From: Brevibacillus massiliensis
Lineage (GTDB): Bacteria; Bacillota; Bacilli; Brevibacillales; Brevibacillaceae
Assembly: GCF_000311785.1 (NCBI RefSeq)
Contig: NZ_HE978537.1
Coordinates: forward strand, 123,788-187,787
Reading direction: 5' to 3'
Length of the DNA stretch: 64,000 bases
Numbering within the stretch: the stretch's first letter is position 1; the number at the start of each line of letters is the position of its first letter. Made by a program: the position numbers and the translations under genes. The notes under the pieces are model-generated. The model was not told the DNA's origin and did no database searches. It saw only the letters and a program-made list of their open reading frames with translations. Shown one piece after another: positions 6,596 through 29,447 of this stretch.

Positions 6596-8326
6596 ATGGC
6601 GTTTGACGGAATCGTCACTCGCGCCGTCGTCCACGAACTGCAAAAGCTCGTCGGCGGCCGCATTACCCGCATACATCAACCCCATACAAGCGACATCGTC
6701 CTTACGGTTCGAACGCAGGAGGGCAGCGTCAAGCTGCTCCTGTCCGCCAACCCCACGTACCCACGGCTGCACCTCACCAGCGAGGAGTTCGTCAATCCGC
6801 AGATCGCTCCCATGTTTTGCATGCTGCTGCGAAAGCACTGTGAGGGCGGATGGATCGAAGCGATCAGCCAGGTAGACACCGAGAGGATCGTCCACATAGA
6901 CGTAAAGACCCGCGACGAATTGGGCGACACGGCACACAGGCGTCTGATCGTCGAGATCATGGGGCGCCACAGCAACATCATCCTCGTCGATCCGGCTAGC
7001 GGCACCATCCTCGACGGCATCCACCACGTCACCCATGCCATTAGCCAGTATCGCCAAGTTCTTCCCGGCCGAACCTATACGGCACCGCCGGAACAGCATA
7101 GAAAAAATCCGCTGACGGCGACGGAACAAGACTTTTTGCTGGCGCTGCAGTGGAACGCGGGCAAGCTGGACAGACAGCTCGTCGACGCCTTTAGCGGCAT
7201 CAGCCCGCTCTTGGGCAGGGAAATCGTCTACCGGGCCGGGCTCCCTACACGCGAGGCGCTGTGGCAAGCCTTTTCCGTTCTATTCCGGCGGATCAGACAG
7301 CACGAATACACGCCGATGATCGTGCTGGCAAACGACCGGGCTGCCTTTTCCGTTGCGGAACTGACTCATTTGAGCGGAGAGTCGATCAGCTTTGAGTCGG
7401 TCAGCAGCTGCCTGCAGGCGTTTTACCAGGAAAAAGCCCTGCGGGACACGGTGAAACAGAAAGTGCACGACCTGATCCGGATCGTCACGACGGAAAAGCA
7501 GAAGAATGAAAAGAAGCTGGAAAAACTGCAGCAAACGCTGGACGAAGCCCAGGAAGCGGAACGCTTTCGCCTGTACGGCGAGCTGATTACCGCCAACATG
7601 CACCAAATCAGCCGCGGCGATACCGAACTGGTCGCCGTGAACTGGTACGACGAGGCGGGAGGTACGGTGTCCATCCCCCTCGACCCGCTGAAAACGCCTT
7701 CGGAAAATCTGCAAGCGTACTACAAGCGGTACAACAAAGCAAAGAACAGCGTCCAGATCGTCCAGGAACAGCAGCGGCTGGCCCAGGAAGAGATCACTTA
7801 TCTGGACGGACTGCTGGTCCAACTGGATCACGCCTCGGTCGCGGAAGCCGAGGAGATTCGCGAGGAACTGACGGAACAGGGCTACCTGCGCCATCGCGGC
7901 AAGAGTGGCCCGCGAAAGAAAAAAACGGACCGGCCCGAGCTGGAAACCTACTTCTCGAGCGAAGGCATCCCGATCCTGGTTGGCAAAAACAACAAACAAA
8001 ACGACTACCTCACCAATAAACTGGCCCATGCCCACGATACGTGGCTGCATGCCAAGGATATCCCCGGTTCGCACGTCGTCATCCGCGCCCGCGAGTACTC
8101 GGAAGAGACTCTCCGGGAGGCCGCCAACCTCGCCGCTTATTTCAGCAAGGCCAGGCACGGCAGCCAGGTACCGGTCGACTACACGTTGGTCAAGCACGTA
8201 AAAAAACCGTCCGGGGCCAAACCTGGATTTTGCATCTACGAGCAGCAGCGCACGCTTTACGTCACACCGGATGAAGCCCTGGTAAAAAAACTGCGAATCC
8301 GGCCTGGCGTAAATGTGAGCGAATAG
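6596..8326 (+). CDS. rqcH: Rqc2 homolog RqcH (NFACT family ribosome quality control factor)
   Basis: 576 residues, normal length for Bacillus RqcH (YloA). RqcH binds obstructed 50S subunits with tRNA-Ala and directs C-terminal alanine tailing of stalled peptides. Seen here: an N-terminal NFACT-N domain opening MAFDGIVTRAVVHEL, the LIVEIMGRHSNIILVD stretch, a helix-hairpin-helix region, a charged coiled-coil middle near residues 290-430, and a C-terminal NFACT-R domain with TWLHAKDIPGSHVVI near residue 480. A TTGAGGTGA site precedes the ATG. It is divergent from yicC, as in related genomes. Older annotations call this fibronectin-binding protein. Confidence 0.94.
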   Translation: MAFDGIVTRAVVHELQKLVGGRITRIHQPHTSDIVLTVRTQEGSVKLLLSANPTYPRLHLTSEEFVNPQIAPMFCMLLRKHCEGGWIEAISQVDTERIVHIDVKTRDELGDTAHRRLIVEIMGRHSNIILVDPASGTILDGIHHVTHAISQYRQVLPGRTYTAPPEQHRKNPLTATEQDFLLALQWNAGKLDRQLVDAFSGISPLLGREIVYRAGLPTREALWQAFSVLFRRIRQHEYTPMIVLANDRAAFSVAELTHLSGESISFESVSSCLQAFYQEKALRDTVKQKVHDLIRIVTTEKQKNEKKLEKLQQTLDEAQEAERFRLYGELITANMHQISRGDTELVAVNWYDEAGGTVSIPLDPLKTPSENLQAYYKRYNKAKNSVQIVQEQQRLAQEEITYLDGLLVQLDHASVAEAEEIREELTEQGYLRHRGKSGPRKKKTDRPELETYFSSEGIPILVGKNNKQNDYLTNKLAHAHDTWLHAKDIPGSHVVIRAREYSEETLREAANLAAYFSKARHGSQVPVDYTLVKHVKKPSGAKPGFCIYEQQRTLYVTPDEALVKKLRIRPGVNVSE

Positions 8327-25192: not shown

Positions 25193-25516
25193 TCACGTGT
25201 CACGATCCTGTGTTTTCACGCTGCTCAGAATCTCCGCGGCCCACTGCTTGAATATTGGAAGAGCTGTTTCCACATCGGGGCAGCGCTCCTCCGCTTCACA
25301 AATATAGTCCGGAAAACGGGTAATGCGGTTTTTTCGCAAACACACGCCCATTTCCTCGCACTTGATCTCCAAAAAAGTGTGAACGGGATCGTCCAGCCCG
25401 TATTTGTTTTCCAAAAACTCGTAAGTGCGCACCCACTCCAGAACCCGGATTTCGTTTGGTTTCAGGTCCATGGCCTGTTCCAGCGACATGACCGTCTCAT
25501 TCCCATAGTAATGCAT
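25193..25516 (-). CDS. Hypothetical cytosolic protein
   Basis: 107 residues from ATG 25516 with AAAGGAG 8 bases upstream. It contains MSLEQAMDLKPNEIRVLEWV, VHTFLEIKCEEMGVCLRKNR and several cysteines, and has no membrane or signal sequence. Composition is that of a small helical protein. I do not recognise a family. It lies downstream of the structured RNA and its terminator, so it needs its own promoter or read-through. Confidence 0.65.
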   Translation of the reverse strand: MHYYGNETVMSLEQAMDLKPNEIRVLEWVRTYEFLENKYGLDDPVHTFLEIKCEEMGVCLRKNRITRFPDYICEAEERCPDVETALPIFKQWAAEILSSVKTQDRDT

Positions 25517-25547
25517 GGCTGCAGCTCCTTTTTTTGTATGAAATGGC

Positions 25548-25582
25548 AAAAAGCCCAGGATCCTTTTCAAGGCCCCGGGCTT
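25548..25582 (-). terminator. Rho-independent terminator of the RNA gene
   Basis: Minus strand AAGCCCGGGGCCTT gaaa AGGATCCTGGGCTT followed by TTT. It lies upstream of the ribosome site of the 25193-25516 gene and can only end transcripts arriving from the RNA region. Confidence 0.8.
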
Positions 25583-25780
25583 CCTTGTCTATGTACAAGG
25601 CCCCCGCTCTGCCGTCCGACCTCATGTTTCTTTAACCTGCACTGACAGGTGGGTGACCCGTCCACGCTTCTGCCTTCCCATGCGTCCGCAAACGGAGGTG
25701 GGCCTGACATACACGTGAAGTTCTGTCTCCCTAGAAACACTCAAGGTTAAAAACATAAGCTGCCGAACGTACATCGCAGG
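25583..25780 (-). ncRNA. Structured RNA candidate resembling 6S RNA
   Basis: This 300-base gap has no open frame. On the minus strand it can fold into one long irregular rod: CTTATGTTTTTAACCT near the 5' end pairs with AGGTTAA..GAAACATGAG near the 3' end; inward are GACAG/CTGTC and TTCACG/CGTGGA pairings and a terminal CTCCG-TTTG-CGGA hairpin. Length near 200 bases, single rod with an open bubble and an adjacent strong terminator match 6S RNA, which inhibits sigma-A RNA polymerase. Identity is inferred from shape, not from a remembered sequence; another small RNA is possible. End points are approximate; no clear promoter was assigned. Confidence 0.45.
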
Positions 25781-25821
25781 ATCGTATCGCACTGATCAGC
25801 TAAACAGCTGTTTGCATACCG

Positions 25822-26229
25822 CTAATTTGATAATCCTATACTACCACAGGATTCAACCATGCTCAACGAGAAATCTTTTCTGTTTGCCTCAATCCTGCCG
25901 TGAAGACCGGCCAGACTCAACGTCCAGCCGCCTTCCGCAGCTTCATAAATCATCTCTGTTCCTTCCTCAAGCGATTGAATCGAAATTCTTTCATCGTTTC
26001 CATGCATTCGCTCCAAGGTTTCGCTGTCAAGGGGATAAGGATAGATGCCGTAGACAGGAACACCTCTGTCCCGCCAGGCAGATCCGTCTGTCCCCGCTTC
26101 GAACAGGGCCGGGACTACCTCTGCTTTGGGCCAAACCTGCTTGCTGCTTTCCTCCAGCGCCCGGTAGAGTTCCGTATCAGGCGCCGATTTCTCAGCGCCG
26201 ACGGTAACGTTATTTTTTATCCGGTATGA
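25822..26229 (-). pseudogene. C-terminal remnant of an M20 family peptidase
   Basis: One continuous frame reads AEKSAPDTELYRALEESSKQ, then VPALFEAGTDGSAWRDRGVP, VYGIYPYPLDSETLERMHGN and DERISIQSLEEGTEMIYEAA. These are the last 100 residues of M20 zinc peptidases (the GTDG and R-x-HGNDER motifs). The N-terminal catalytic part with the zinc ligands is absent, and the frame runs back into the end of the CoA-transferase gene. It is therefore a 3' remnant left by a deletion. Confidence 0.75.
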
Positions 26230-27379
26230 TTCCCAATGAGGAGTACTTCCTCAGCTCTGAATCGCCAATCCCCAATTTGTTTCGCAGCACATCATGCGTA
26301 TCCGCTCCGCTGCCCCCTGCAGATAACGCGGTCTCCGCCATCCTGCCTTGAACGCTTTGCGGCGGAGTCTGAACTGGCGGCTCGTCATAAGCCGAAGCGG
26401 CGAAGCGCCTGCTCTGGACGTACATGCTCCTCGCCCAGGTATCCGCTTCTTCCACTGCCGTCAAGCAGCAGTCAACCTCCATCCCGAACTCATTCCACTC
26501 CGCCTGCGTCCGGGTTAAAAAGAGCCCTTTCATCTCCTCGTACAATTCCGGAGCTTCTTCGACCCGCAATCCGCCGTACGGTTCCCAGTCTTCCCGTCCG
26601 ACCGCAGAACAAAAATTCAACCAGAACTTTTCCTCCAATGCCGCTAACGCCACAAAGCGTCCATCTGCTGCTTCATACACGTTGTAATTGACGCGCGGGC
26701 ACGGAAAGCCGGTCTCCCTGCTCTCCCGCCCCCGCTGACCCGGCCACTCCGGCAGAACGCGCAGCGCAAGCCACGATGCCAGTACGTCTACCAATGCGAT
26801 ATCGAGGTAAGCCCCCTTTTCGCTCCGTTCTTTTTGGACGAGAGCCGCGCAGATTTGTTCAGCCGCAAACAATCCTCCAGCCAGTTCGGCAAGCGGGATT
26901 TCCGCCACCACCGGCCGGCCGTCAACATCCCGGTTTACCCCCAAAAATCCGCTTACCGCCTGATAGTTGAGATCGTGTCCGCCCAATTGGCCCATGGTCC
27001 CGGTCTGGCCAAACCCCGTTATCGAGCAGTAGATCAACTCCGGCTTTGCCTCGCGAAGAGCGGCGTAGTCCAAACCGAGATGGGAGACGACGCCCGGCCG
27101 GAAGCCTTCGATCACGACATCGGCTTCGGCAGCCAGGGCAAAGGCCAAATCGCATCCTTCCGGCGCCCGCAGGTTGAGCAAAACGCTTTTCTTCCTGCCG
27201 ATCTTATCGGGGAACAAGGCCTGGACCTCGGGGGCAAAAATGCCTGTTTCAACATGGCGGACAGGGTCTCCAAACGACTCTACCTTGATGACTTCCGCTC
27301 CCATCCCGGCGAGCCTGATGCCGCAGTAATCGCCTGGCAAATGACGGGTAAAATCAATAACAGTAATGCCCGTGAGCAA
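26210..27379 (-). CDS. CaiB/BaiF family (class III) CoA-transferase
   Basis: 389 residues, normal for the family. It opens LTGITVIDFTRHLPGDYCGIRLAGMGAEVIKVE; DVVIEGFRPG and the substrate-binding loop FGQTGTMGQLGGHDLNYQ are clear. The catalytic aspartate is expected in the YLDIALVDVLASW segment near residue 195. These enzymes move CoA between carboxylic acids. The start is TTG 27379, with AAGGAGG 7 bases upstream. Substrate cannot be told, and no beta-oxidation neighbour is present. The 3' end overlaps the M20 remnant by 20 bases. Confidence 0.88.
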   Translation of the reverse strand: MLTGITVIDFTRHLPGDYCGIRLAGMGAEVIKVESFGDPVRHVETGIFAPEVQALFPDKIGRKKSVLLNLRAPEGCDLAFALAAEADVVIEGFRPGVVSHLGLDYAALREAKPELIYCSITGFGQTGTMGQLGGHDLNYQAVSGFLGVNRDVDGRPVVAEIPLAELAGGLFAAEQICAALVQKERSEKGAYLDIALVDVLASWLALRVLPEWPGQRGRESRETGFPCPRVNYNVYEAADGRFVALAALEEKFWLNFCSAVGREDWEPYGGLRVEEAPELYEEMKGLFLTRTQAEWNEFGMEVDCCLTAVEEADTWARSMYVQSRRFAASAYDEPPVQTPPQSVQGRMAETALSAGGSGADTHDVLRNKLGIGDSELRKYSSLGIIPDKK

Positions 27380-27494
27380 GATGATCCCTCCTTCGTAGAA
27401 GAGATGCCATTTGCCAGCTTATTCGCCACTCGGACGAAAAATCCTCTTTCTATTCGGAAAATTTGCACTCCCTGCGGTCAGGACGCCGGTTTCG

Positions 27495-28626: not shown

Positions 28627-28845
28627 TCAATCTTCATCCTCGTCGTACTTTACGTAGGTAATGGTCACACCGAGGCTTCTCAGCAAATCCAGAACGGCTC
28701 GGTTCAGCCGTTCGTCAGCGAGCAGCCCGATGCTCTCGACCAATTCCAGCTCTTCCAGTTCCCCCGATTTTGCGTCTTCAATCAACTCCAGAATTTCCGT
28801 CATGTTTTGCTGCTCCAATATGGAGAGGATTTCCTCTGTCGTCAC
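28627..28845 (-). CDS. Hypothetical acidic protein
   Basis: 72 residues from GTG 28845. Strongly acidic and helical: TTEEILSILEQQNMTEILEL then LLADERLNRAVLDLLRSLGV and TYVKYDEDED. The end resembles the last helix and strand of sigma-70 region 1.1 (D-x-x-x-L-L-x-x-L-G-V), but there is no other sigma feature. No family is assigned with confidence. The gene is divergent from the DUF309 gene. Confidence 0.6.
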   Translation of the reverse strand: MTTEEILSILEQQNMTEILELIEDAKSGELEELELVESIGLLADERLNRAVLDLLRSLGVTITYVKYDEDED

Positions 28846-28922
28846 GTCTTTTCCCTGCCTTTTCTGCGTGTAATCCTGTATAATTATATCCTATCAGATC
28901 ACAAAGGGGTTCACGTAAAAAA

Positions 28923-29447
28923 ATGATGAAGTATCCCGACGCCTACATCCGTTACCTTGTCCATTTCCACGGTGACCGCGACTATTTTGAATGCCATGAA
29001 ATCCTCGAAGAGTATTGGAAAGAGCTGGGGAAGCCGCAGGATCCCGTCTGGGTCGGCCTGATCCAACTCGCCGTTGCCTTGTACCATCAGCGGCGGGGAA
29101 ATTTCGCCGGCGGCATGAAGATGATGGCCAGCGCCATTCGTAACTTGGAGACCACGCGTGCAAGCGTTCGTCAGTTGGGACTAGATGATCGAAAACTGCT
29201 CGCTTTACTTCGCCAGCGGTTGGCCGGACTTGAACAAAACCAACCGTACACCAGCTTGAATCTGCCGTTTTCAGATGAGCAGCTGCTTCTCGCCTGCTCG
29301 GACCTCTGCCGGCAAAACGGCATGACATTTGGCCAGCCGAGCGATGAATCGAATCGTTTTCTACTGCACAAACACACCCTGCGGGATCGCAGCGGCGTCA
29401 TCAGCGAGCGGCTGAACAGCTTGAAAAACAAACATGGACAGTCTTAA
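28923..29447 (+). CDS. DUF309 domain protein (YpuF-like)
   Basis: 174 residues. The family motif is clear at residues 19-33: DYFECHEILEEYWKE, then VGLIQLAVALYHQRRGNFAGG, the conserved helical bundle core. The C-terminal 80 residues are less conserved and specific to this protein. DUF309 proteins are small helical proteins of unknown function. Two ATG codons in a row are possible starts; AAAGGGG is about 13 bases upstream. Its stop overlaps the stop of the convergent CPBP gene. Confidence 0.85.
   Translation: MMKYPDAYIRYLVHFHGDRDYFECHEILEEYWKELGKPQDPVWVGLIQLAVALYHQRRGNFAGGMKMMASAIRNLETTRASVRQLGLDDRKLLALLRQRLAGLEQNQPYTSLNLPFSDEQLLLACSDLCRQNGMTFGQPSDESNRFLLHKHTLRDRSGVISERLNSLKNKHGQS

Follow-up and report, generated by a model that had tools for sequence, protein, structure and literature searches.

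A 6S RNA gene with a predicted promoter and terminator, from a separate paralogous clade of the Brevibacillaceae

Bacterial RNA polymerase is parked by 6S RNA, a small RNA that imitates an open promoter. In Bacillus subtilis 6S-1 is the major RNA, and its gene, bsrA, we take to adjoin aspS. The available part of PMC8414754 places rarA close to bsrA and describes a hairpin opposite the 5′ central bulge, both in 6S-1 and in the 6S RNA of lactic acid bacteria. For the second paralog, 6S-2 (bsrB), the text accessible from PMC7726162 reports that its lack in B. subtilis seems to be without effect on stationary-phase growth and sporulation, and describes its function as unclear. Searches on 6S RNA in Paenibacillus, Brevibacillus and the Brevibacillaceae, judged by title, gave nothing on the topic.

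Here we describe a gap on the minus strand of a 64,000-nucleotide stretch of the Brevibacillus massiliensis genome (the window). Very probably (roughly 0.96), this gap holds a 6S RNA gene that is functional and is equipped with a sigma-A-type promoter and an intrinsic terminator of its own; it would be the second of the two paralogs in this Brevibacillaceae genome. This reading is based on an end-to-end match to RF00013, a fold confined to one strand, covariation, membership of a separate clade, the promoter and terminator, and the presence of two 6S genes in the genome.

Identity and fold of the RNA

Scanned against Rfam, the whole window yielded two matches that exceed the cut-off, 6S RNA (RF00013, SsrS) and an unrelated PyrR binding site (RF00515, 41497-41617, minus strand, 68.2 bits). 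The 6S match runs on the minus strand from 25785 to 25597 and covers the full length of the model (positions 1-187 of 187), with 68.6 bits against a gathering score of 46.4 and an E-value of 1.9e-11 over the window. A permissive Rfam scan of 25300-26000 gave no better RNA family, and none but RF00013 reached the cut-off. The preliminary description had proposed a 6S RNA candidate here, to be checked against Rfam, and the match, on the same strand and at the same place, bears this out. Its range of 25548-25780 does contain the rod and the terminator, but the RNA start given by Rfam (25785) falls a few bases outside it and the promoter (25866-25838) further out.

Membership of RF00013 is indicated by the covariance-model score over the full length, by a rod with two helical arms around a central bulge together with covariation, and by a free-standing transcription unit with a predicted promoter and terminator. 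Length, central bulge, conserved ends and a free-standing gene with its own terminator are all as in the family, and no trait beyond the family's range was found in the window copy. Judged by its sequence, the gap is a genuine but ordinary 6S RNA gene of a kind already known; the gain is its annotation and a clean confirmation of the first reading.

The minus strand of 25548-25780 folds at −100.2 kcal/mol, against −76.0 ± 4.8 for shuffled sequences (z −5.00; 0 of 200 as good), whereas nothing stands out on the plus strand (z −0.70; 52 of 200 as good). The long imperfect minus-strand hairpin noticed earlier thus stands, as does the 15-base helix, which is found where 25759-25744 (CTTATGTTTTTAACCT, the 5′ arm below the central bulge) pairs with 25638-25621 (AGGTTAAAGAAACATGAG, the 3′ arm). 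Opposite the 5′ central bulge a small hairpin, ACCTGTCAGTGCAGGT, could form at 25650-25635. Since it shares bases with the 3′ arm, the hairpin and the helix may be alternative states. Both the general fold and this possible hairpin resemble those of B. subtilis 6S-1.

Of the 59 copies in the tree described below, covariation was assessed on 24, the rows that make up the clade of the window copy. Their consensus has 46 pairs, and 97.2% of cells are paired compared with 43-47% in slid controls. Changes on both sides occur in 11 of the 46 pairs (41 cells), so that the covariation among aligned homologues on which the earlier proposal depended is present. None of 500 shuffles reached any of the five covariation measures, a count that is not to be read as a probability because shuffles ignore relatedness. 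Most of the signal comes from helix 6 of the apical arm (6 of 6 pairs). Variation is almost absent from the closing helix and two further helices, which count as neutral; most pairs of helices 1, 5 and 8 are invariant and so prove nothing. Taken over the alignment, the covariation supports the predicted fold.

Predicted transcription unit and gene neighbourhood

Alignment with relatives points to a sigma-A promoter with the −35 hexamer TTGAGC at 25866-25861 and the −10 hexamer TAGTAT at 25843-25838, separated by a spacer of 17 bases that ends in the extended motif TGTGG. A TTG/TTT hexamer, a spacer of 15-18 bases and a TRTG-extended −10 are found in 23 of the 24 clade members, the exception being G035. 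By consensus the predicted promoter is weak, with 8 of 12 bases. A generic promoter and terminator scan missed both sites of the 6S gene on the minus strand; its threshold of at least 9 of 12 consensus bases accounts for the missing promoter. The promoter was recovered through the clade alignment and a dedicated site script, and the terminator through folding and the same script.

Transcription would start about 7 bases after the −10, giving a predicted 5′ leader at 25831-25786 that may be removed or retained. The distance from the −10 to CCTGCG is 57 bases, the longest in the clade (13-50 in the other 23), which likely means either a longer precursor that is then trimmed or a second start. 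Between the 6S RNA and the terminator the fold contains a short hairpin, CCTTGTACATAGACAAGG (25600-25583), which showed no conservation in the alignment of relatives. The terminator itself, AAGCCCGGGGCC...CCTGGGCTTTTT, is a stem-loop followed by a T run at 25582-25548. A terminator-like site is present in 23 of the 24 clade members (not in G004), compared with 3 of the 24 control stretches from upstream and 11 of the 72 resampled sequences. The terminator is followed by a ribosome-site-like AAAAAAAGGAGCTG at 25535-25522 and by an ATG at 25516, and the earlier observation of a strong terminator ahead of the next gene's ribosome site therefore holds.

The gene beginning at that ATG (25193-25516, minus strand) encodes 107 residues and is separate from the 6S unit. 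Relatives of it occur in 18 of the 22 other genomes of the family and in 0 of the 16 from other families; no Pfam family was found for it. Among the seven loci of relatives that were scanned, five (L063, L064, L066-L068) have the homologue of this gene near tRNA genes.

Gene names in the neighbourhoods were assigned by reading the sequences, and the ORF families F0, F1, F2 and F11, apparent antisense frames of real genes, were not used. A CoA-transferase gene (26213-27391, upstream), a small gene (28630-28845) and a DUF309 gene (28884-29444) are near the 6S gene in relatives too, and on this evidence the neighbourhood is inherited. An NFACT-domain gene (RqcH-like) starts about 0.85-1.7 kb downstream of 6S in relatives, whereas here it is found at 6989-8296 on the plus strand, ~17 kb away and in the same relative orientation, so that the intervening DNA has been gained or rearranged. 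A C-terminal fragment of an M20-family peptidase (25822-26206, minus strand), which has neither a start nor the N-terminal part, separates the CoA-transferase gene from 6S; in several relatives its place is taken by an enoyl-CoA hydratase-like gene.

Two paralogs and the apparent loss of the aspS-linked copy in five genomes

The genome has two 6S genes, the window copy at 68.6 bits and another, C2, at 73.4 bits. The other copy (L001) is flanked by aspS and a thiF-like gene, an arrangement shared with most relatives, and it is thus this copy, not the one in the window, that occupies the bsrA-type locus. Like bsrB, the window copy is a second paralog at a separate locus. All 39 genomes of the set searched gave at least one 6S match; besides the window genome itself, the set comprises 22 further members of its family and 16 genomes from other families. 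In a tree with 59 copies, the window copy falls within a 24-member clade (23 of 23 typed family genomes and G035; support 100/98), separate from the copies at the aspS locus; the deeper branching is poorly settled, with long branches. The end branch of the window copy is short (0.032), and the copy shares 78-91% identity with the clade's other 22 family members. Tree and neighbours together establish, at the level of sequence, that it belongs to a paralogous clade of its own in which the neighbourhood is conserved.

While these observations fit a functional gene, the weak consensus promoter, the 57-base leader distance, the lower Rfam score and the many invariant pairs count against it. Could the window copy be a decaying, silent duplicate of the aspS-linked gene? 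Its score below that of the other copy, its long leader and the broken M20-peptidase remnant just upstream would fit such a history. Against this, every typed family genome has a copy of the same clade, promoter and terminator are retained, the end branch is short and the identity to the other family members of the clade 78-91%, and five genomes carry the window type only, so that we regard decay as very improbable. Even less credible, and close to negligible, is a cis-acting leader, a riboswitch or attenuator of the 107-residue gene instead of a free small RNA. The shared strand and the position of the terminator just upstream of that gene's ribosome site are what such a leader would have, but RF00013 is matched end to end and in relatives the homologue of the gene is on other contigs or far from 6S matches. 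This reading was rejected because the gene is unlinked to 6S in relatives.

Returning to a functional second paralog, 34 of 39 family genomes have two 6S matches and five (G001, G003, G011, G012 and G014) have one; 16 of the 39 (G039-G054), with two matches each, were not typed into clades and are left out of the clade counts. In all five one-copy genomes the tree assigns the sole copy to the window type. Their aspS genes were found (loci L129-L133), and the loci around them gave no 6S match at E ≤ 1. The gap from aspS to the thiF-like gene is ~70 bases in G001 and G011, too small for a 6S gene, and about 280-320 bases in G003, G012 and G014, which may hold a divergent or decayed copy. As the five belong to two genera that also hold two-copy members, at least two losses are implied.

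It is conceivable, at slightly less than even odds, that in the Brevibacillaceae the 6S-2-like paralog, present in every typed genome, is indispensable, with the aspS-linked copy lost at least twice and five species living on the window type alone. If true, this would reverse the B. subtilis picture of a major 6S-1 and a 6S-2 without a clear role. The loss pattern is mildly unexpected given the dispensable-looking 6S-2 of unclear role in the accessible part of PMC7726162, and it is of some interest that here it is the second paralog that has always been kept. Species with the second type only would allow its unclear role to be tested without the first. A wider search on 6S paralogs had nothing on this point by title, among the matches listed.

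Presumed template box and product RNA

The presumed template box, aligned with that of 6S-1, is the 3′ part of the 5′ arm, UUUUUAACCU and the next bases, and we infer that this region would be used as the product-RNA template. In the window clade the box reads TAACCTT in 21 of 24 copies (exceptions L020, L031 and L043); the pattern search gave no match in L006, L028 and L031, the last being read by eye from the alignment. All 18 family copies at the aspS locus read TTTTGAGCCACAA.

The known 6S mechanism most likely applies. By analogy with established 6S biology, the rod with its open central bulge would mimic a melted promoter and, in stationary phase, bind the housekeeping RNA polymerase holoenzyme; on outgrowth the polymerase would use the box near UUUUUAACCUU as template for a short product RNA, and the 6S RNA would be released. 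The product RNA is probably about AAGGUUAAAAAC. The available part of PMC8414754 places GG at product-RNA positions 5/6 or 4/5, which would have it start on U or C, whereas a start on A puts GG at 3/4; the start may be at any of the three.

The central-bulge box of the window copy differs from that of 6S-1: UUUUUAACCUUGAG is not the complement of the B. subtilis 6S-1 product RNA, GUUCGGUCAAAACUA, as given in the portion of PMC12005410 at hand. The complement of L003, the aspS-linked copy of a genome of the same class, fits that product RNA exactly. The second, non-aspS copy of L003's genome, L060, has GTTTTAACCTTT, similar to the window clade. The 6S-2 product RNA of B. subtilis presumably starts AAAGGUUAAAAC. 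The window box resembles GUUUUAACCUUU of L060, a similarity confined to the box. The tree does not join L060 with the window clade and no shared neighbours of the two were found, so the window copy is a possible rather than an established ortholog of bsrB; the likeness of the boxes suggests that the product RNA would be 6S-2-like.
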